Below, in pieces: positions 10,871 through 21,647 of a stretch of DNA of 64,000 nucleotides (positions are counted from its first letter, which is position 1; each line of letters opens with the position of its first letter). This stretch comes from Alloscardovia macacae (GTDB taxonomy: Bacteria > Actinomycetota > Actinomycetes > Actinomycetales > Bifidobacteriaceae). The stretch covers positions 372,001 through 436,000 of the forward strand of contig NZ_MWWT01000001.1 in the NCBI RefSeq assembly GCF_002259705.1, given 5' to 3'. The position numbers were made by a program, and so were the translations under genes. The notes beneath the pieces were generated by a model. It was not told the DNA's origin. It worked only from the letters and a program-made list of their open reading frames with translations, and ran no database searches.

Positions 10871-13800
10871 ATGAGTGTACGAAAAGCGTACACAAAAATA
10901 GTGCTATCCATACTCGCTGTGCTCTGCTTTATATTTAGCTCAGGAGCTATCAGCGCTGTAGGAGGAACTACGCGTGCTTATGCAGATGATGCCGTGGCGA
11001 ATACGACGCACACGGTGAATTTCTGGCGTAACAGGAATACGGCAGATGAATATAAAGTCACGTGTGTGATTCAGTCTGGGCAGTTTATACCTGGTGTGGG
11101 CCAGGGCACTGACGTAGCCACGTACGCGCCGCTTGGTAAAGATGACGCAGGAAAGGATACATACTGCGTTCAGCCGAATGTGTGGGGTCCGAACTTCGGA
11201 CGAAAGGATGCACTCGAGATTTTCGGCATGGTCCTCGGCGGAAGCCGTTTTAGCGCATGGAATACAGCGCGAGATGGCTCTGGCACGTATTACCGCGGCC
11301 AGCAGGTGCTCACGGATAGTGATTCGGCGGAGATAGATCTTTACGAGCAGTGGGCGAGCGCTCAGAGCTTGCTGGATGGAGCCAAAGATTTCGCGACGCA
11401 GAAGCCACAGGTGTGGATAGAGAATAGTCTCGACCATCAGACGGATGCCACGGCGCTGAATGTGTGGCAGGCGGGCTCTTTACACTACCGTGCGACGCTG
11501 GACTTTAGCCAGAACCGGAATACGCTGTCCACGCTGTGGGGGCGTATCGACCGTGTAACCGATTATAAGGGCTTTATTAAGGCGAAGATAGACTCGAAGT
11601 ATACGTTCGACAAGCCGCTTGACATCGTGTTCGCATCCACATGGCTCGTGCCGAATCAAGAAGAAATGCAGAAGGCTGTATATTCTGGTGTGACTGTCAC
11701 TCAGGTGGATGTGACGAATACTCTCGATGGTAAGCCAGAAAAAGCCTGGAAGTTTACCTATCCTGCTTCCTATGTGGGTCAGGAGACGCAGACTATAAAT
11801 GTGAACGGTACAGACCGCACGTTTAATGTCATTAATATTCCTGTGACCATGATCTCGAAGGCTGAGATGTATAAGCTCAGCTTCGATGACTTCATGCGCC
11901 CTATGGAACTGAGCGTGGCGGATGACTATGCACGTGGTCTGAATGCTGTGATTAGTGAAGAGCAGTATAATGCCATAGCGGTGAGCGACGACCCGTACCT
12001 GCGTGTGGGTGGCGAGATAGACATGGAGATTAATGGTAACTCCGTGCGTAACGATCCGAATGATACGACGAACGCATATACCCATTACAGTAACCAGAAT
12101 CCACAGGCGAACTGGCAGGTAGCGCGTCTCTTCCCATCCTCGCAGCTGGATGTAGCTCTCTATGACATCCAGACAGGAGAAAAGCTTACCGCTGCTAGCC
12201 CTATCACGAATACCGTGACGAATGCGGCACCTCAGGGGGACTCCGCACTCTACGGTCCGAAGGGTGCTGCTATGAGTCAGAATGCTGGTGGAGGGTATTC
12301 TGTAGCGGGAGACCAGAGCGCGTCTACGTTCTGGCGCTCGCGCGGTCGTTCGAAGCAGCCAGTCTATACGAGCGCGGATCCGAATGATCCTTTTAATACT
12401 GCGGATACGTGGAAGGTGACTCCTCCAGACATTCCTGGATACATGTATGTGAAGGCTATGCTTCCATCCACGCAGCCGACGAGTACGACGGGCGTATCCG
12501 AAAGCTTCGTCCCATGCCCTACCTCGGGCGCAGGATGCCGCGATGCTTCGGAGGCAGATCTGGAAGGCTCCTATGACTTCCGTACTCCGCAGGAACGCAC
12601 ACTCTTCTATGCGCGCCTTGGTTCCATAGGAACGAAGGTGTGGATAGATGCGAATCGCGATGGTGTGTACCAGGATGGTGAAACCGTCGTCCCAGATACG
12701 AAGGTGGAGCTGCTCTATCCAGATGGAACTCCAGCGCTGAATACTTCTGGCCAGCCTATTACGGCGACGACGGATGCTCAGGGGAACTATGAGCTGACGA
12801 ACATCATTCCGAATGAATTCGCTGGAGCTGGACACGAGACGTACATGGTACGTTTCACGCTACCGAGCGGATACTCGGTGACCCGTATAGGCGATGCGAC
12901 GACCGGGATAAACAGTACATCTGACCGGCAGGGGTATGTGCGTGACGTGGTCGTGGGGCCTGGCCAGCATAACCCTACAGTGAACCTCGGTATGTATGCA
13001 TCCACGTCCATCACGGTGACGAAGAAGTGGGATGACCGCGCGAATGTGGCTTCTGAGCGGCCTGAGAGCATTCATGTGAAGCTCATGAATGCTGCCGACG
13101 TAGATGCTGAGACGCATACGGCGAAGGATGGTGCGCAGCCTGTGGCAGAAGCTGACATGTCCGCTGCTGCTGATGGAACGTGGTCCCATACGTTCACGGA
13201 TATTCCTACACATGATGCGAGCGGTGCTCAGCTCTCCTATACGGTTCTCGAAGATCCCGTGGCTGGATATGAGGCCGGGGCGTATTCCGGAGATGCTGCG
13301 AGTGGCTTCACCATCACGAATGCGAAGCGTTTCATAGATATTCCTGTGCGGAAGGTGTGGCTGGACGCTCAGGGTGCTGTGGATACTTCGAATACGAATC
13401 CTGTGACTGTGGAGCTGTGGAAGAATGGTGTGGCTACGGGCCGGACTGTGGAACTGAATGCTTCGAATAACTTCACCGGGCGCTTTACTAATGTGGCTGT
13501 CGATCCTGGCTCGAATGCAGATGAAGTGTACTCTGTGCGCGAATCCGGTGCTAACGGTTCGCTTATCTCTGTGAATGGCGCTCTATATATGGTGGATGAT
13601 AACGACGGAAAGGTGACGGATGCTGCTGGCGTGACCATCACGAACATGCGGCTCACGACGGATAACCCAGTGACTCCAGATCCAGACCGTCCAGTAGCTG
13701 AGCGTCTGAACATTCCTGTACAGAAAGTATGGGATGATCGCGATAACGTAGCTGCTGGTCGTCCTGCGAGCGTGACCGTGCATCTGCTGGCGAATGGTAC

Positions 13801-14923
13801 TGAGGTGGCTAGTACTGAGCTGAATGCTGCTGGCTCCTGGAAGCACGTCTTCGAAAACCAGCCAGTAGTGGATGCTTCTGGTGCGCGCATTACGTATAGC
13901 GTGACGGAAGATGCTGTAGCTGGGTATGAATCTCCTTCGTATACTGGGAATGAACGTGACGGCTTTACAGTAACGAATGCGAAGCGTTTCCTGGATATTC
14001 CTGTGCGGAAGGTGTGGCTGGATGCTCAGGGTGCTGTGGATGCGTCGAATACGAACCCGGTGACTGTGGAGCTGATGAAGAAAGATACGGCTACGGGCGT
14101 GACTGTGGCGACGGGGCAGACTCTCGTACTCAATCCTGCGAATAACTTCACGGGGCGCTTCACGAACGTGCCTGTGGATCCGGGAACGGATGCAGATAAG
14201 GTGTACACGGTTCAGGAAGTGGGCGTAACGGATTCTGTTATCTCTGTGGATGGTAAGCAGTATGCCTCTGATGTGCAGGGGAGTGCCATGGCTGCAGATG
14301 GTTTTACTGTGAGGAATATGCAGCTCGCCCCGAATACGCCTGTGACACCTGATCCAGACCAGCCTGTGGCTGAGCGTCTGAACATTCCTGTGCAGAAAGT
14401 ATGGGATGACCGTAATAATGCAGATAAGGCACGTCCAGAAAGTATCACGGTTCATCTTTATGCGAATGGTACCGAGGTAGCTTCTGCTCAGCTGAATGAA
14501 GCAGGTGAGTGGAGGAACATCTTCCAGAATCAGCCTGTCGTAGATGCTCGCGGCGAGCGGATTCGCTATGCTGTGGTAGAAGATGCCGTAGAAGGATATA
14601 ATGCTCCAGAATATGCAGGTAACGAGCGTGATGGCTTCACTGTGACGAATACGAAACCTGCGGGTACGGTCACCGTCCCAGGTGAGCCAGGAGATCCTGA
14701 AAATCCGAGAGATACTCCGAAGGATAAGCCAGGTGAGCCAGGAACTACCGTCCCAGTGACGAAGACGCCTTCGTCTCCATCGTCTCGCGCTGCACGTGGT
14801 AAGCAGAATCTCGCGAAGACCGGTGCAGAAGTCTCTGTGGCTGTTACGGGTATGGCTTTGTGTGCTGTTCTCGGGGCAGGAGCAGTACTACTGCGAAAGC
14901 GTGGAACTGCGTCTAGAGCATAG
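10871..14923 (+). CDS. Sortase-anchored Cna-B repeat surface protein (pilin/adhesin type)
   Basis: 1350-residue secreted protein. The signal peptide ends at AYA/DD (about residue 38). An N-terminal domain of about 550 residues that I do not recognise follows. Next is an SdrD-B-like domain near 590-700 (GTKVWIDANRDGVYQDGE). Five Cna-B repeats then start near 714, 822, 946, 1040 and 1170, alternating an IPVQKVWDD type with an IPVRKVWLD type. A Pro/Thr stalk leads to LAKTG at 1314-1318, a membrane helix and a basic tail. Sortase links such proteins to the wall or polymerises them into pili; no sortase gene lies in the window. A G9 tract lies upstream. The leader has GAGAGAGGA before the ATG. Confidence 0.9.
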   Translation: MSVRKAYTKIVLSILAVLCFIFSSGAISAVGGTTRAYADDAVANTTHTVNFWRNRNTADEYKVTCVIQSGQFIPGVGQGTDVATYAPLGKDDAGKDTYCVQPNVWGPNFGRKDALEIFGMVLGGSRFSAWNTARDGSGTYYRGQQVLTDSDSAEIDLYEQWASAQSLLDGAKDFATQKPQVWIENSLDHQTDATALNVWQAGSLHYRATLDFSQNRNTLSTLWGRIDRVTDYKGFIKAKIDSKYTFDKPLDIVFASTWLVPNQEEMQKAVYSGVTVTQVDVTNTLDGKPEKAWKFTYPASYVGQETQTINVNGTDRTFNVINIPVTMISKAEMYKLSFDDFMRPMELSVADDYARGLNAVISEEQYNAIAVSDDPYLRVGGEIDMEINGNSVRNDPNDTTNAYTHYSNQNPQANWQVARLFPSSQLDVALYDIQTGEKLTAASPITNTVTNAAPQGDSALYGPKGAAMSQNAGGGYSVAGDQSASTFWRSRGRSKQPVYTSADPNDPFNTADTWKVTPPDIPGYMYVKAMLPSTQPTSTTGVSESFVPCPTSGAGCRDASEADLEGSYDFRTPQERTLFYARLGSIGTKVWIDANRDGVYQDGETVVPDTKVELLYPDGTPALNTSGQPITATTDAQGNYELTNIIPNEFAGAGHETYMVRFTLPSGYSVTRIGDATTGINSTSDRQGYVRDVVVGPGQHNPTVNLGMYASTSITVTKKWDDRANVASERPESIHVKLMNAADVDAETHTAKDGAQPVAEADMSAAADGTWSHTFTDIPTHDASGAQLSYTVLEDPVAGYEAGAYSGDAASGFTITNAKRFIDIPVRKVWLDAQGAVDTSNTNPVTVELWKNGVATGRTVELNASNNFTGRFTNVAVDPGSNADEVYSVRESGANGSLISVNGALYMVDDNDGKVTDAAGVTITNMRLTTDNPVTPDPDRPVAERLNIPVQKVWDDRDNVAAGRPASVTVHLLANGTEVASTELNAAGSWKHVFENQPVVDASGARITYSVTEDAVAGYESPSYTGNERDGFTVTNAKRFLDIPVRKVWLDAQGAVDASNTNPVTVELMKKDTATGVTVATGQTLVLNPANNFTGRFTNVPVDPGTDADKVYTVQEVGVTDSVISVDGKQYASDVQGSAMAADGFTVRNMQLAPNTPVTPDPDQPVAERLNIPVQKVWDDRNNADKARPESITVHLYANGTEVASAQLNEAGEWRNIFQNQPVVDARGERIRYAVVEDAVEGYNAPEYAGNERDGFTVTNTKPAGTVTVPGEPGDPENPRDTPKDKPGEPGTTVPVTKTPSSPSSRAARGKQNLAKTGAEVSVAVTGMALCAVLGAGAVLLRKRGTASRA
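13336..14650 (+). repeat. Tandem Cna-B domain duplication within the adhesin gene
   Basis: DNA starting near 13336 (IPVRKVWLDAQGAVD) recurs near 13996, and that near 13706 (LNIPVQKVWDD) recurs near 14378, a two-domain unit of about 660-670 bp. It is similar enough at DNA level to recombine and change repeat number. Confidence 0.75.
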
Positions 14924-14961
14924 GGTAGAGAAAGAGAGTCCCAAAGAGCCCACAGAAGGCT

Positions 14962-15012
14962 AGAGGGGGCGTGGCAGAGAACGTATCTCAGGTTCTTAGC
15001 CACGCCTCTTTC
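14962..15012 (+). terminator. Terminator of the Cna-B adhesin gene
   Basis: Stem AGAGGGGGCGTGGC / GCCACGCCTCT at 14962-14975 and 14999-15009 with a short T-run, 40 bp after the stop codon. Confidence 0.8.
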
Positions 15013-15275
15013 GTATGCTGTCATTCAGGTGAGTTCGCGGAGATGATACTAGTTTTAGTACGTCCCCTTAGCCCTTGTACTATAAGGCCTTAAGGATGTT
15101 TTAAGCCGCACATAATGGCCTATAACGGCTCATCATTTCGCGCCATGGCTTGTGTATGCGAGTGGAAAGCGCGGGATATACGCGGGATATACGCGGGATA
15201 TACGAAAGGGGTCTGTGTGGTGTTCACACAGACCCCTGAACTGACGCGTTCCCGCCTCGAGTACTTGCTTGCTTT
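15013..15275. other. Gap between two convergent adhesin genes
   Basis: Holds an ATACTAGTTTTAGTACG palindrome-like site (15046-15062), three direct copies of GCGGGATATAC-type repeats (about 15172-15204) and the terminator at 15196. No reading frame here looks coding. Confidence 0.6.
15196..15226. terminator. Hairpin ending the 15276-18041 gene
   Basis: Perfect 13-bp stem 15196-15208/15214-15226 (AGGGGTCTGTGTG) with a 5-nt loop between convergent genes; on the minus strand it is followed by TTTCG. Confidence 0.85.
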
Positions 15276-18041
15276 TTAGTCTTCGTTCGTGCGGCGCATG
15301 AGGATCATGCTGCCGCCGAGGACGATGAGTACTGCTGCTGTCGTGGCGAATCCTACGATGTCAGAGCCAGTCTTTGCGAGGCTTGCTCCGGAGGAGGTAG
15401 AGACAGCCTTTGCAGAATTCTGAGCGCCGTTATCTGCTGGCACTACGCATCGTGCTACGCCGCTGATGGTGTAGTTGATGGTGACGCTCAGACCGTTTGG
15501 ATAGGCCTTCGTGCCTGGCTTGTAGGTGACGGTTAGTGGGTACGTGCCGTCCTTGGTGAAGTTAACCTTGCTGGTGTCTATCTTCAGATCAGACTTTTTC
15601 CAGGAGATTTCTGCGCCGTCGTCCCCGCGTATATGCGTGATAGCGGCGAGAATCGTCTCATCGGAGTAGACGCATGGGTTTATGGACAGCTTGTTCTTAT
15701 CCACGTCGATTCCCGCCTGGGACTTCGTCCATTGCGCGTAGAGCTTCACGTCTGCCTTTACATCCGTGAGTTCGGAGCCGAGTGCATGCGCGGTGCCGGA
15801 CCCGTCAGCCGCGGTATTCCATCCCGAAAGCAGATATCCCTCGCGAGACAGCTCAGTTCCACGAGACAGCTTTACTGTTCCGCTCTTATCTGCGGTATAC
15901 TGCACCTTTTGAGATGGTACAGTTCCCGTTCCCCTGTTCGCATCGTACGAGACTGTCGCTGCGCACTGTGCTACGCCGCTGAGCGTGTAGTTGACGGTGA
16001 CACTCAGTCCGTTCGGGTATGCTGGAGTTCCGCGCGTATACGTAACGGTCACCGGATACGTTCCGTCCTTACTGAAGTCCACCTTACTGCTGTCTACCTT
16101 CAGGTCAGACTTCTGCCACATCAGCTCGGCGCCGTCGTCCCCGCGTATATGCGAGACGGTGTTCAGGATCGTCTCATCCGAGTAGGTGCATGGATTTTCT
16201 TTGGTCAATTTCCCCTCATCCACACCTATCTCCGCCTGAGACTTGGTCCACTGCGCATAGAGCTTCACATCAGCCTTCACACCGGTAAGCTGGGAACCCA
16301 GCGCGTGAGTCGTGCCACTTCCATCAGCAGCGGTATTCCAGGAGCTGAGCGTATAGCCTTCGCGAGAAAGCTGCTCGCCGGATGCGAGAGTAGCCTCACC
16401 TGGCTTATCATCCGTATACGTGACTTTCTGGGAAGGCACAGTACCCTGACCAGCGTTTGCATCATAGGAGACTGTCGCCGTTTCTTCTGGTGGGCAGGAA
16501 GTAGCATTCTGGGCAGTGATGTACAGGCGCGTCTTCGAAGAGGTAGAAAGCTGCGTACGTGAGCCATCTGCATTCGCACTGTAATAGCGGTAGGTGATGG
16601 TGTATTTTCCTGGCTTTGAGGTGTCTGGAGCAGATACTTCGTTACCCTGAGCATCGGTGTACGTTATGTCTATGAGCTTCTTCTGCGCATCATTATTGAG
16701 CGGATCATTTATCTGAGCGCCATTATATGGGCGAACCCAGCTAATGCCCTGTGCAGGATTAAATGTATCTCCCACAGTCATGCAGATATTCTGTGCAGTG
16801 GACAGGTAGTGCCACAGCTCGATGTATGCGAATGGGTGACCAGATTTGATGACGTCAGAGTTCTCAGCACCGCGAATCACCAGAGTCTTAGAATCCGTCG
16901 TGTGATACGTATAACGGTCGAGATACCAGCCGTTTGTGGACCAGCCTGTGCCGTCATATGCCTTCTTCACCTTAGCAAGATTAATAGTGTAGTATCCTCC
17001 ACGAGTATACGCTAGAGTACCATTCGCTATCATGTCCGCTACGTTCATGTACTGTGCAGAGCCAGCATTCTTATAGCTAAAGTCGCTCGCATCGAGTCCG
17101 ACGATGTTATTCGGAATCTGTGGAACATCAGTAAAGGTATAATCGTAGCTCGTGCTCGGAGATATAGCATTATTCGTCGTATAAACGAAGTCGAGAGTCT
17201 TATCCTTCAGTGGCTCGTACTTATCCCAGTATGGGTTGTATGGTGCAGAATCCGTCTTCGCGAAACGCAGTCCGGCGGTAGAGGTACCCCAGTTAGCATA
17301 TGTTCCCCATGGTGCTATAACCAGAGAGTTACCGATGTTATTAGTCAGTGAAACTGGGCTGCTCGTAGCCTTGAGATCCAGTTCATCAGCATTCGTCAGA
17401 GCCAGAGGGATAGTGACAGTAAGCTTCTGACCAGCGGTCAGAGATCCATGCAGATACATGTAGTACACGTTTGGCATGGTCTCGCCGTACTGGGCCTTAT
17501 ACTGTGCGGCCTTCGCATAGCTTCCTGGATTAGACGTATTCGAGTATTCAGTCGCAGCCTGGACAGCGGCAGCATTCGCACCGCTGAAGGTAGGTTCGCC
17601 CGTGAACTGTACATGGGGCATTCCAGTGCCCTGGTTTGCTGAAGGAGTCACGATGTCATATTGAAGAATCGGCACATCTTTTTCAGCAGTCAGCTCTATG
17701 ACGGCATTAAAGTGATAGTATCCATCTGCACCCTTCGTCATCTGGTCGAGATTCAGTACAGAATCTGGGACGGCAGGGCTAGAACTGGAGTAGTTCGAGG
17801 TGTAGGTCTGTCCATCGCTACCCTGAGCAGTGAAGTACATGGTATGTTCGAAACTATTCGAGTTATCCGCAGGAATAGATGTAACCGTCTGACGGTTTGG
17901 GGTATCTCCGTTCGTCATTACTTCCGTATACGCAGCATGCGCGGGGCTCACAGGCATAAGAGCATTCACTCCTACGAATCCTGCAAGGAGAAGAGCGCAT
18001 GAGAGTATGACGGACAGCAGGCTTTTACGAGTCCGAGTCAT
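15276..18041 (-). CDS. Sortase-anchored surface protein with InlB-type B repeats
   Basis: 921-residue secreted protein. The signal peptide ends near SPAHAA (residue 36). A roughly 480-residue N-terminal domain has no family I recognise. Then come two copies of a unit made of an InlB/Flg_new-like B repeat (VSYDANAGQGTVPSQKVTY..., ending KLYAQWTKSQ) and a beta domain (CTYSDETIL..HIRGDDGAE). The end is LAKTG at 888-892, a hydrophobic helix and a charged tail. B repeats occur in many Gram-positive adhesins. The ribosome site is weak (GAGAAAG). Confidence 0.87.
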   Translation of the reverse strand: MTRTRKSLLSVILSCALLLAGFVGVNALMPVSPAHAAYTEVMTNGDTPNRQTVTSIPADNSNSFEHTMYFTAQGSDGQTYTSNYSSSSPAVPDSVLNLDQMTKGADGYYHFNAVIELTAEKDVPILQYDIVTPSANQGTGMPHVQFTGEPTFSGANAAAVQAATEYSNTSNPGSYAKAAQYKAQYGETMPNVYYMYLHGSLTAGQKLTVTIPLALTNADELDLKATSSPVSLTNNIGNSLVIAPWGTYANWGTSTAGLRFAKTDSAPYNPYWDKYEPLKDKTLDFVYTTNNAISPSTSYDYTFTDVPQIPNNIVGLDASDFSYKNAGSAQYMNVADMIANGTLAYTRGGYYTINLAKVKKAYDGTGWSTNGWYLDRYTYHTTDSKTLVIRGAENSDVIKSGHPFAYIELWHYLSTAQNICMTVGDTFNPAQGISWVRPYNGAQINDPLNNDAQKKLIDITYTDAQGNEVSAPDTSKPGKYTITYRYYSANADGSRTQLSTSSKTRLYITAQNATSCPPEETATVSYDANAGQGTVPSQKVTYTDDKPGEATLASGEQLSREGYTLSSWNTAADGSGTTHALGSQLTGVKADVKLYAQWTKSQAEIGVDEGKLTKENPCTYSDETILNTVSHIRGDDGAELMWQKSDLKVDSSKVDFSKDGTYPVTVTYTRGTPAYPNGLSVTVNYTLSGVAQCAATVSYDANRGTGTVPSQKVQYTADKSGTVKLSRGTELSREGYLLSGWNTAADGSGTAHALGSELTDVKADVKLYAQWTKSQAGIDVDKNKLSINPCVYSDETILAAITHIRGDDGAEISWKKSDLKIDTSKVNFTKDGTYPLTVTYKPGTKAYPNGLSVTINYTISGVARCVVPADNGAQNSAKAVSTSSGASLAKTGSDIVGFATTAAVLIVLGGSMILMRRTNED

Positions 18042-18195
18042 AAGAACTTTTCTTTCTCAAATAAAATTGTCTCTTTCCATAAAAAATTTTAACAGGGGGT
18101 CTAACGAAAAGCGTTTGTTTGTTTTGAGGAAGGCGAGTCGTGTCAGAGGATGTGTGCAGACTGGGTGATACTAGTGAAAGTAATGAATATACGCC

Positions 18196-18420
18196 GCACG
18201 GGGAAAGTCTAGGGATAGACTTTCCCCAGTGTGCATAATGAAAGGACGAATGATAAGCGCCCTATCAGTCATAGCCAACTCACCAAAAGTCTTAGCATGC
18301 ATCACATAGTGGCGAGAAGTAGCACGCTATGTCCTGACACACTCTATTCTACGTGCAGACATAGAATGACAAAGAGCCTCACGCTTGGGACAGTCATCTC
18401 AGGCGTGAGGCTCTTTTCTC
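18196..18420 (+). ncRNA. Structured RNA, tandem copy 1, unknown class
   Basis: About 225 nt: a strong 5' hairpin (18196-18234, GGGGAAAGTCT/AGACTTTCCCC), a 103-nt core (18264-18366), and a strong terminator (stem 18374-18384/18403-18413, then TTTT). The core is about 91% identical to copy 2 at 18610-18712. Both flanking helices differ from copy 2 by base pair-preserving changes, so the structure appears to be under selection. There is no downstream gene on this strand for it to control. A 19-codon frame (ATG 18250 to TAG 18307-18309) lies inside. Not recognised as tmRNA, RNase P, 6S, SRP or a T-box by eye. Confidence 0.7.
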
Positions 18421-18536
18421 CTATCAGAAAACATTATTACGTCTTTGTCATCTCCTCGCTTAGGCCAGCACCAGTCACGGGGCACAGTGCCTCTCGCAAA
18501 CCAAACTTAAGCGATAATGTTAGTCCCTATATGCCA

Positions 18537-18765
18537 GATGGGGAAAGTACACGAAGCACTTCCCCCATCTTACATAGTAAACAAGGAGGGATGTAGCAAT
18601 AGACACCCCATCAGTCATAGCCAACTCGCCAAAAGTCTTAGCATGCATTACATAGTGACGAGAAGTAGCACGCTATAATCTGACAAGCTCTATTATACGT
18701 GCAGACATAGAAGGGAAGGGCCTCACGCTTGGGACAGTCATCTCAGGCGTGAGGCCCTATTTCCT
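18537..18765 (+). ncRNA. Structured RNA, tandem copy 2
   Basis: Second copy of the RNA above, same order: 5' hairpin 18537-18569 (GATGGGG.../...CCCCATC), core 18610-18712, terminator stem 18718-18728/18747-18757 (GGGCCTCACGC). A GATAAT-like box near 18512-18517 could be its own promoter. Its terminator stem also lies just after the valS stop codon and could end valS transcription on the other strand. The short frame of copy 1 is conserved over 14 codons (Ser-Val-Ile-Ala-Asn-Ser-Pro onwards) but has no ATG, GTG or TTG. Confidence 0.7.
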
Positions 18766-18775
18766 CGCTGTAGTA

Positions 18776-21535
18776 TTACTTCTTCTTCGCCGGCGCTTCG
18801 CCCAGTTCAGAAGCAGTCACGACGACGCTATCCGCATCCTCGCCATCCTGAGCACCATCAGAAGCAGACGCAGCCACGAGCTGAACATCGCCCGTCACAC
18901 GTCCAGCCTCCCAGATGTCTGCGGCAGCTGCACGGACGGCATCCATGCCTGCTGGAGACAGAGCTAAGGTGGCAGAAAGAATTGGCGTCTTCATGGAGAC
19001 CTTCGCCTCAGACTTAATCTTACGCAGAGCAGCCAGAGCGCGACCAGCCCAGAGCAGGACGTCTGCATCCGCATCCGCAGCGGCAGCGCGGTACAGGTCC
19101 GCGGTCGGCCAGGCGGTGCGGTGGACGGATCCCTCGCCAGCGTGCATCCAGGAGTACACCTCTTCCGTGGCATACGGCAGATACGGAGCGAGCAGACGCG
19201 CGAACGCATCCAGTCCCAGGCCCAGCGTCGTGCGCGCAGACAGGACATCCGCCTCAGATGGCTCAGCGCCCGTGGCGTCCGCGGTACCGTACGCGCGGTT
19301 CTTCGCCAGCTCGATGTAATCGTCGCAGAACTGCCAGAAGAAGGTCTCTATGGTGTCCAGTGCGCGCGCGTGGTCGTAGTCGTTCAGAGCAGCCGTAGCC
19401 GTCTCGACGACGGACGCCAGCTGCGCCATGACCGAGCGGTCCAGAGGATTCACCACATCAGCAGCATTCCACTGCGCTTCAGCAGCCGAACCTACGTGAT
19501 GGTTCTCGTCCTCGCGGCCGATGGCCAGCGCGAACTTCGTCGCATTCAGCAGCTTAATGGCCAGGCGGCGGCCTATCTTCATCTCGCCTATCTCATAGGC
19601 AGCATCCGTGCCGAGGCGAGCCGAAGCAGCCCAGTAGCGCACTGCATCCGCGCCGAACTTCTCGATAGGCTCGGACGGAACGACCACATTACCCTTCGAC
19701 TTACTCATCTTCTTATGATCAGGGTCGAGAATCCAGCCGGACAGGCCCGTGTGTGCCCATGGCAGCACGCCATTTTCGAGGTGCGCGCGCACCACAGAGC
19801 TGAACAGCCACGTGCGGATGATGTCCTGACCCTGCGGACGCAGATCCATAGGGAAGGTGGCCTTAAAGAGTGCTTCGTTCTCCTCGCCCGGCTCAGCCCA
19901 CTTCGTCACGATCTGTGGGGTGAGAGAGGAGGTAGCCCAGGTATCCATGATGTCCTTTTCGGCTGTGAAGCCGCCAGGCACGTCACGCTGATCCTCAGTG
20001 TATCCAGCCGGGGTATCCACGCTCGGATCTACTGGCAGAATGTCTTCTGCAGGAGTCAGCGGGTGCTCGTAGTCCACCTCGCCCGACTCGTCGATAGGGT
20101 ACCACAGTGGGAATGGGACGCCGAAGAAGCGCTGGCGAGAGATGAGCCAGTCACCACTCAGGCCGTTCACCCAGTTCTCGTAGCGCACGCGCATGAAGTC
20201 TGGATGGAAGTCCAGCTCCTTACCGCGCTGAATGAGCTCAGCGTTCAGCGCGCGGTCCGTGCCGCCGTTCGAGAGATACCACTGGCGCGAGGTGACGATC
20301 TCCAGAGGCTTGTCGCCCTTCTCGTAGAAGTTCGTCATACGCTTCGTCGGCGTAGGCTCGCCAGCGAGGTCACCAGACTCGCGCAAAGCGTCCACGATGA
20401 TCTTACGTGCAGAGAAGGTGGTCTTACCCGCTATCTCGTCGAAGAGAGCACGGCCAGACTCGGACTCTATCCACTCTGGAGTGGTGAGCGTAAGGCGGCC
20501 GTTTCGCTGGATGATGGACCGCGTAGGCAGCTGCAGGTCGCGCCACCACTGGACGTCCGTCATGTCACCGAAGGTGCAGCACATGGCTATGCCCGCGCCC
20601 TTATCCATCTCGGCTGCTGTGTGCGCGATGACTGGCACCTTCACACCGAACAGAGGCGAGTACACGTGCTTTCCGAAGTACTTCTGGTAGCGCTTGTCAT
20701 CGGGATGCGCGATGAGAGCCACACAGGCTGGCAGCAGCTCTGGGCGCGTGGTCTCGATGTAGAGTGGCTCTGTGCCCTCGGACCCATCCTCGTTTTCGAG
20801 GTGGAAGGCCACCTTATGGTAGAAGCCGTCATACTCGCGGCTTTCGAGCTCAGCCTGAGCCACTGCAGTCTGGAAGGTTACGTCCCACAGGCCTGGAGCT
20901 TCCTTCTGGTACGCCTGGCCGCGTGCGAGGTTACGCAGGAAGGCCTTCTGTGCCACGCGACGAGGATGCTCGCCGATGGTGTGGTACGTCTGCTTCCAGT
21001 CCACCGACAGACCCAGCGTGCGCCACAGCTTTTCGAAGAGCTTTTCGTCTTCGCTCGTCAGGCGTTCGCACAGCTCGATGAAGTTCTGGCGAGACACCGG
21101 CACCTGGTCTTTCGCCTGGATCTTCTTACCGTCCGTGCCTTCGAATGGTGGCTTAAAGTCTGGGTCATACTTCAGCGAGGTGTCTACGCGCACGCCGAAG
21201 TAGTTCTGCACGCGACGTTCGGTAGGCAGGCCGTTATCATCCCAGCCCATCGGGTAGAACACGTCGAAGCCGTTCATGCGCTTGAAGCGAGCGATGACGT
21301 CCGTGTGCGTGTACGAGAAGACGTGGCCCACGTGCAGGCTACCGGAGACGGTAGGAGGTGGGGTGTCTATGGAGTACACGGCCTTACGGTCGCGTGTGCC
21401 CTGGAATGCGTACGTTTGCTCGTCTTCCCACGTGGCGCCCCACTTCTCCTCGAGACCCTCGACGCCGGCTTTATCCGGCAGCGCGGTCAGGTGTGCGGAC
21501 ACGCTCAATTCGTGTGCTTGTGCTTCATTAGTCAT
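18776..21535 (-). CDS. valS: Valyl-tRNA synthetase
   Basis: Class I synthetase charging tRNA-Val. About 919 residues with GSLHVGHVF (HIGH motif), an editing CP1 insert, DHKKMSKSKGN (KMSKS) and an anticodon-binding domain near the end. The frame extends to a GTG at 21565, but ATG 21535 has TAAACT exactly 7 nt upstream, fitting a leaderless transcript; neither start has a ribosome site. The C-terminus is acidic and Ala-rich, ending in lysines. No T-box is visible upstream. Confidence 0.96.
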   Translation of the reverse strand: MTNEAQAHELSVSAHLTALPDKAGVEGLEEKWGATWEDEQTYAFQGTRDRKAVYSIDTPPPTVSGSLHVGHVFSYTHTDVIARFKRMNGFDVFYPMGWDDNGLPTERRVQNYFGVRVDTSLKYDPDFKPPFEGTDGKKIQAKDQVPVSRQNFIELCERLTSEDEKLFEKLWRTLGLSVDWKQTYHTIGEHPRRVAQKAFLRNLARGQAYQKEAPGLWDVTFQTAVAQAELESREYDGFYHKVAFHLENEDGSEGTEPLYIETTRPELLPACVALIAHPDDKRYQKYFGKHVYSPLFGVKVPVIAHTAAEMDKGAGIAMCCTFGDMTDVQWWRDLQLPTRSIIQRNGRLTLTTPEWIESESGRALFDEIAGKTTFSARKIIVDALRESGDLAGEPTPTKRMTNFYEKGDKPLEIVTSRQWYLSNGGTDRALNAELIQRGKELDFHPDFMRVRYENWVNGLSGDWLISRQRFFGVPFPLWYPIDESGEVDYEHPLTPAEDILPVDPSVDTPAGYTEDQRDVPGGFTAEKDIMDTWATSSLTPQIVTKWAEPGEENEALFKATFPMDLRPQGQDIIRTWLFSSVVRAHLENGVLPWAHTGLSGWILDPDHKKMSKSKGNVVVPSEPIEKFGADAVRYWAASARLGTDAAYEIGEMKIGRRLAIKLLNATKFALAIGREDENHHVGSAAEAQWNAADVVNPLDRSVMAQLASVVETATAALNDYDHARALDTIETFFWQFCDDYIELAKNRAYGTADATGAEPSEADVLSARTTLGLGLDAFARLLAPYLPYATEEVYSWMHAGEGSVHRTAWPTADLYRAAAADADADVLLWAGRALAALRKIKSEAKVSMKTPILSATLALSPAGMDAVRAAAADIWEAGRVTGDVQLVAASASDGAQDGEDADSVVVTASELGEAPAKKK

Positions 21536-21647
21536 GCTCACGAGTTTACGTGCCGAACGCGACACGCAGGCGAGAGCTGTGCGGGCTGTGACGCGGACGC
21601 GCGGGATGTCGTCTTCTACACTCTGGAAATTTTTGTGAAGATGGCGC

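Follow-up and report, generated by a model that had tools for sequence, protein, structure and literature searches.

The gap between a surface-protein gene and valS in the window, as we call the whole 64,000-nt stretch of Alloscardovia macacae DNA that was analysed, probably holds two tandem, partnerless minus-strand copies of a new family of small RNAs (sRNAs) built on type I antitoxin logic. This apparently undescribed RNA family belongs to bifidobacteria and their plasmids. The predicted RNA is about 150-160 nt long and starts with a covarying three-helix domain. Its recurring partner in the family is a small hydrophobic protein (SP) encoded divergently, and most of the RNAs contain, between the domain and the terminator, a segment that is reverse-complementary to that partner's Shine-Dalgarno sequence or its immediate surroundings.

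The gap (18042-18775) is flanked by two minus-strand genes and carries two copies of one unit, as the original prediction had claimed: they align over 114 nt at 89% identity and over 46 nt at 93%, with start-to-start spacings of 346 and 344. Folding energies of the two copies on the plus strand lie well below those of dinucleotide shuffles (z of -7.9 and -5.9), and copy 1 gives a z of -6.5 on the minus strand. Covariance-model matches (models R2 and R3, see below) cover 18258-18352 for copy 1 and 18604-18698 for copy 2. The strand given below for both copies follows from wobble asymmetry, promoter register and terminator side, each measured on the family. The features of the locus are:

18190-18339, minus strand: predicted transcript of sRNA copy 1, starting near 18339 and ending near 18190 (strand evidence from the family)
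18528-18685, minus strand: predicted transcript of sRNA copy 2, starting near 18685 and ending at about 18528 (strand evidence from the family)
18346-18351, minus strand: putative -10 box of copy 1, TAGAAT, with TTGTCA at 18367-18372 and a spacer of 15
18692-18697, minus strand: putative -10 box of copy 2, TATAAT, without a good -35
18265-18337, minus strand: predicted three-helix domain of copy 1, its pairing evaluated on 27 members
18265-18268/18334-18337, minus strand: helix P1 of copy 1, also predicted by RNAalifold
18279-18284/18311-18316, minus strand: helix P3 of copy 1, also predicted by RNAalifold, as is the inner P2
18295-18300: loop palindrome GCATGC of copy 1
18641-18646: loop palindrome GCATGC of copy 2
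18230-18247, minus strand: putative seed of copy 1, antisense to a ribosome-binding site (RBS), placed by homology; the plus strand reads TGTGCATAATGAAAGGAC
18570-18589, minus strand: putative RBS-antisense seed of copy 2, placed by homology; the plus strand reads TTACATAGTAAACAAGGAGG
18200-18227, minus strand: hairpin at the terminator position of copy 1 (formerly taken as a 5' hairpin), without a clear T run
18537-18569, minus strand: hairpin at the terminator position of copy 2, without a T run
18371-18416: hairpin upstream of the copy 1 promoter (formerly taken as the terminator of unit 1)
18717-18758: hairpin in the interval from the valS stop to the copy 2 promoter; may be the terminator of valS
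18776-21565, minus strand: valS, valyl-tRNA synthetase
15276-18041, minus strand: gene for a surface protein with List_Bact_rpt and Big_3; the two sRNAs lie upstream of it on the same strand

The reading frames through both copies matched no Pfam family, and a 19-aa frame was rejected as a gene, its start codon being present in copy 1 and missing from copy 2 (by eye). Beyond the gap, two large surface-protein genes face each other at 10871-18041, one with five Cna_B domains and SdrD_B, the other with List_Bact_rpt and Big_3. The valS on the other side is closest to those of A. theropitheci and A. criceti (88-89%), in keeping with a genome of Alloscardovia.

The two units had first been read as plus-strand RNAs, each opening with a 5' hairpin and closing with a 3' terminator. 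This assignment is contradicted in the family by three measures, and the family transcripts, those of the window copies included, most likely lie on the minus strand of the window. All seven pairing failures in the four core sequences are A.C, which is U.G on the opposite strand; in two larger sets A.C/C.A outnumber G.U/U.G by 19 to 6 and by 69 to 31, although the alignments were fitted to the plus strand. At the end of the core, a minus-strand -10 box with at least five of six matches falls at one register in 60 of the 71 distinct RNAs, the next best place, on the plus strand, reaching 9 of 71. The -10 boxes listed for the members share the common register in 67 of 71 (the exceptions being L152, L225, L181 and L229), and the site spreads over several positions, owing to length differences, when measured from the other end of the core. 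Many members also have a -35 element, often TCGACA, 17 nt upstream. In 34 of 71 the site matches a full promoter at 9 or more of 12 positions, compared to at most 3 of 71 anywhere else; when scored with a spacing penalty, the counts are 27 of 71 vs 0 on the sense strand (shuffled mean 0.46). Moreover, four or more T occur in the 8 nt after the hairpin to the left of the core in 27 of 71 RNAs on the minus side, compared to 2 of 71 on the plus side. Judging by the promoter register, the side of the T run and the wobble, P1 is therefore the most likely start of the transcript and the former '5' hairpin' its most likely end. The roles of the hairpins are thereby reversed: the supposed 3' terminators (18371-18416 and 18717-18758) sit upstream of the inferred promoters, and the supposed 5' hairpins occupy the terminator position. 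The hairpin at 18717-18758 starts 17 nt beyond the stop codon of valS and on the strand of that gene, and may hence be its terminator. Two plus-strand RNAs ending at strong hairpins are hardly credible against the family wobble, promoter register and terminator side, which all indicate the minus strand; the plus strand does fold strongly and has TTTTCTCC after the copy 1 hairpin, but no clear U run is found there for copy 2. The paired changes cited in support of selected structure are of unequal value. The change from GAGCC/GGCTC to GGGCC/GGCCC in the terminator hairpin is real (alignment columns 197/234, AU to GC). That in the 5' stem, GCAC/GTGC vs GAT/ATC, pairs only if the register is shifted and one A is bulged out (by eye) and is therefore weak evidence. 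Overall, the window copies are weak examples of the family, with imperfect predicted promoters and terminators.

On the minus strand, both RNAs are upstream of the surface-protein gene at 15276-18041, which starts 217 nt past the core of copy 1; the statement that no gene follows on the RNAs' own strand is thus true for the plus strand only. A leader or attenuator of this same-strand gene is nevertheless very unlikely, since each copy has its own -10 box and hairpin and since the recurring partner, SP, is on the other side. Indeed, among the 71 members, the nearest ORF past the terminator (mechanically called, 90 aa or more) is co-oriented in 24, opposed in 31 and absent from the locus in 16. 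A co-oriented downstream ORF is not conserved across the family; the homologues do not look leader-like, and the downstream gene on the same strand by which a cis-regulatory leader or riboswitch would be recognised is not a family trait.

The three-helix domain was evaluated over 27 members, in an alignment fitted to the model, which favours the model's pairing: 85.3% of the cells pair vs 68.3 after shuffling, both sides change in 14 of 16 pairs, and 77 double-change cells compare with 21.9 (sd 4.1) in shuffled and at most 12 in slid versions. The outer P2 pairs (columns 14-95 and 15-94) are mostly unpaired, in 14 and 17 of the 27 members, respectively. RNAalifold, run on the same alignment, recovered P1, the inner P2 and P3, and 11 of the 13 pairs it predicts change on both sides; MAFFT alignments gave the same arms by eye. 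A 6-nt palindrome occupies the apical loop in 59 of the 71 distinct RNAs (23.7 when shuffled) and in 29 of 34 representatives with less than 75% identity (shuffled 11.3, sd 2.5, maximum 19), with no such excess in the arms flanking the loop. The palindromes vary, TGCGCA, TGTACA, GTATAC, GTCGAC, GCATGC, GCGCGC, TGGCCA and AAGCTT being among them; AAGCTT takes a different position in the loop from the others and is frequent in the loops of members from genomes G176 and G179. That they change and yet stay palindromic suggests that copies of the same RNA may pair with each other through their loops. Alternatively, the palindrome may be a DNA site for a protein.

A covariance model built from the two window copies (R1) found two copies in one more Bifidobacteriaceae genome (G046), in which the core of the window copies is recognisable by eye. 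In the set of four core sequences, changes on both sides occur at several pairs of the three helices; the model made from it (R2), applied to 189 Bifidobacteriaceae genomes, gave matches with an E of 1 or less in 16, those in four of the genomes (L142, L144, L145 and L147) being dropped as lying inside coding sequence (by eye). With a 27-sequence model (R3), the candidate type I toxin-antitoxin (TA) family extends to 34 of the 189 genomes at E up to 0.1, in 70 copies, in addition to the Bifidobacterium plasmids. One match (L226:709-741) was left out and identical RNAs were counted once; these genome numbers are lower bounds because the stricter filters of large searches lose weak matches. No copy was detected by R3, under such filters, in four sister Alloscardovia species. 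Among 396 genomes of the order, family members included, five from outside the family gave weak R3 matches (E 0.0025-0.081), which were taken as chance since they had no SP (best SP E 0.3). The RNA was also found by R2 in 11 of 12 fetched Bifidobacterium plasmids, twice in pEK13, with five matches at E up to 6.3e-7 and seven at E 0.058, the score being equal across the seven records. BLAST with copy 1 against 99 genomes returned itself and one match elsewhere, taken as chance; both copies, as well as the relative L117, had no match in phages and plasmids. Two long DNA patterns found nothing among viral contigs, and the 24 matches of a 15-nt pattern there were dismissed as chance. The absence of any recognised RNA class was borne out by a covariance-model search: no Rfam 15 family reached its gathering score in the gap, and the whole window yielded tRNA only. 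The best lax match in the gap, mir-7445 on the long hairpin (E 0.0055, 29.7 of 79 bits), and the sub-threshold Rfam 15 matches at ten homologous loci were likewise put down to chance.

The partner was followed with a profile (A7) of 13 sequences of the small ORF; with an E of 0.1 or less, it had matches in 53 of the 189 genomes. From 73 matches at E up to 1e-3, 70 SP loci were examined (the top match in each of 30 genomes plus 40 more), leaving out G177, G173:C4 and G157:C7:151193. An RNA divergent to SP lies 115-209 nt from the ORF start in 56 of these 70 loci. The remaining 14 have no RNA model match on the expected side; a diverged RNA is visible by eye in six of them (L209, L214, L216, L231, L232 and L239), L180 has its RNA on the far side of the ORF, and several look eroded. 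Conversely, 47 of the 70 RNA copies have an SP match within 260 nt and 23 do not, a count in which decayed ORFs would be missed. SP is 35-70 aa long in 60 of 63 cases (median 54), and its best 19-aa Kyte-Doolittle mean is at least 1.6 in 55 of 60. For SP itself, no promoter can be seen at a constant position. Genomes G176, G179, G173 and G194 have six to nine SP matches each, which in G194 include genes in two pieces. By tblastn, one SP found 18 plasmid records, all of Bifidobacterium (B. longum, B. breve, B. bifidum and others), and nothing in phages; a viral-contig search with one SP gave no relative. The RNA lies 118-127 nt from the ORF start in 10 of the 12 fetched SP plasmids; pKJ50 (L168) is an eleventh plasmid with the RNA, and in the twelfth the ORF is 72 nt from the end of the record. 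As the plasmids were picked for the SP ORF, these figures express association and are not a census. Of the two sRNA-SP modules in plasmid pEK13 (L161), each is close to a rep gene, of which this plasmid has two; by contrast, L169 has two rep genes and one RNA match.

The RBS-antisense sequence differs from locus to locus; at L138, for example, the RNA has GCGGCATACATTGAAAAGGAC and the stretch before the ORF GCGGCATACATTGAAAGGAC. Local matching was scored for the 63 RNAs that have an ORF no more than 480 nt away, a set that also takes in farther tandem copies and decayed ORFs. Cognate pairs score at least 9 in 42 of 63 cases, compared to 4.7% of non-cognate pairs; 21 of 63 stay below 9, and the cognate is the best match, ties allowed, for 34 of 63. 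A score of 9 or more is reached by 19 of 30 representatives, and the sum over all 30, 294, was equalled in 0 of 10000 permutations (permuted 173.5, sd 8.0). In the arrays of G150 and G127, the RNAs nearest to the ORF score 9.0, 10.5 and 13.0 against the RBS, and two farther scored RNAs 6.0 and 5.0. From this complementarity to the SP RBS we read a predicted repression of translation. Substitutions between seed and RBS do not favour those tolerated by G.U pairing (14 vs 17; representatives 10 vs 7), so that a direct repeat at the DNA level is conceivable. The seed would then stem from duplication or recombination, with the RNA acting otherwise, e.g. as a single-strand origin or a copy-number RNA. 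The palindromic loop, suggestive of self-contact, and the position of the modules near plasmid rep genes, two with two in pEK13, agree with this. It is, however, unlikely in view of the fixed promoter and terminator, the many chromosomal copies, the conserved SP frame and the locus-specific match at the Shine-Dalgarno sequence, and L169 pairs two rep genes with one RNA match.

Antisense repression at the RBS is therefore retained as the preferred reading, and the family shows by sequence the hydrophobic partner, the own divergent promoter and the RBS complementarity of type I TA systems. We infer that SP may be toxic solely from its likeness to type I toxins. SP could instead be an ordinary membrane protein, e.g. 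a transporter modulator or a plasmid immunity or exclusion peptide, repressed through its RBS. Six SPs compared with Pfam, NCBIfam and PHROG matched no family at a meaningful E-value, so nothing there points to a toxin, and the nine SP matches in the G176 chromosome are many for toxins. An SP that is not a toxin nonetheless appears rather doubtful, because its size, its hydrophobicity and its carriage on plasmids near rep genes better fit type I toxins, as do decayed SP copies (L157 and L149, by eye) and the divergent RNA directed at the RBS. The SP of the window's own genome gave a sub-threshold match to the Fst toxin (E 0.31, 10.9 of 26 bits).

For either window copy, no SP partner was found. 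The original prediction of RNAs with no target gene thus holds for the pair and fails for the family, with its recurring divergent SP and an RNA that matches the SP RBS in antisense. Duplicated, apparently stand-alone structured RNAs with covariation are supported, and a role in trans is plausible. Tandem RNAs recur elsewhere, as two arrays in G150 and one triple in G127; partnerless tandem copies would therefore be a habit of the family. A complete third module, sRNA with SP, is present in the same genome (L154), where a 374-aa ORF with a zinc-finger-like CXXC start, transposase-like by eye, lies beyond the sRNA terminator. The window seeds score 6.0 and 7.5 against the RBS of this own-genome SP, and its cognate 10.5. 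Their best matches among the RBSs of the set reach 10.5 and 11.0, which is not strong because each is the best of about 60. With up to three mismatches allowed, seed 1 occurs 10 times in the genome, counting its own locus, vs 7 times for a reversed control, and seed 2 finds only itself. No convincing cognate RBS for the window seeds was found in their own genome; the 12 nt that seed 1 shares with the RBS of a GH25-like ORF (named by eye; L272, G000:C16:50324) were dismissed, as such a match does not rise above the reversed-pattern control. Whole-molecule duplex energies with the own SP leader were as low in 58 of 100 shuffles for sRNA1, in 2 for sRNA2 and in 22 for the cognate sRNA3, so this measure fails to pick out the cognate.

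Small hydrophobic proteins with an RNA repressor are also carried by plasmids in fst/par of pAD1. In hok/sok and fst/par the RNA overlaps the toxin transcript in antisense, whereas in the present family the RNA and SP genes are divergent, and the complementarity comes from a short, separate copy of the RBS region. Type III TA systems (ToxIN-like) likewise have tandem RNA units beside a protein gene; they differ in that their endoribonuclease is encoded after the repeats on the RNA strand, whereas no endoribonuclease was recognised here and the partner is divergent, hydrophobic, about 50 aa long and without a Pfam match. To our knowledge, the family has no sequence relation to the divergent type I pairs of E. 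coli, as compared through Rfam and protein-family scans. In these pairs, tisB/istR-1, dinQ/agrB, zorO/orzO and shoB/ohsC (PMC8167048, PMC5668327), a small hydrophobic protein, a divergent RNA and limited complementarity to the toxin leader are combined as in the present family, and similar copies likewise occur in a single genome (zorO/orzO and zorP/orzP). In the present family the seed is located at the RBS, whereas the zorO and shoB sites are far upstream of it (PMC8167048, PMC5668327). Further differences from the E. coli pairs are the covarying three-helix domain with its palindromic loop, the plasmid modules, the tandem partnerless copies and a toxicity that is here only presumed. Plasmid carriage of a small hydrophobic protein and its RNA repressor is shared with hok/sok (PMC5668327). 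The titles and opening lines of abstracts of the open-licence papers that were searched contain no description of such a family in Bifidobacterium. A November 2025 review of Bifidobacterium TA systems covers, in excerpt, type II and leaves other types, e.g. type I, possible (PMC12724246); four type II systems are reported on a megaplasmid (PMC10832533) and 11 high-confidence sRNAs in B. animalis (PMC4338058). The Ms1 region is described as absent from Bifidobacterium (PMC9130861), and the conserved presence and synteny across related genera that mark an Ms1/6S-like RNA are not seen in the family, no copy of which was detected in the four sister species under the stricter filters.

In the proposed mechanism, the sRNA would bind the SP mRNA at the Shine-Dalgarno region and block its translation, unrepressed SP would harm or slow the cell, and on plasmids the module would aid maintenance. 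The window pair may have outlived its SP genes or been copied without them; the two copies may now serve as spare antitoxins, regulate other ribosome-binding sites in trans, or be decaying. Taken further, a type I TA system native to bifidobacteria and to their small plasmids, with self-recognising kissing loops and with tandems like that of the window acting as anti-addiction or trans-RBS regulators, is a tentative possibility. If SP is toxic, the module would help explain the persistence of small cryptic plasmids and might matter in vectors built from them. To RNA biologists, it offers a covarying sRNA family with variable palindromic loops. A recent copy of a whole module was observed at L141/L151 (G151:C29, at about 1833 and 7119), where two mutually inverted sRNA-SP units, some 5.3 kb from each other and with unlike flanking sequences, agree completely by eye over about 470 bp.
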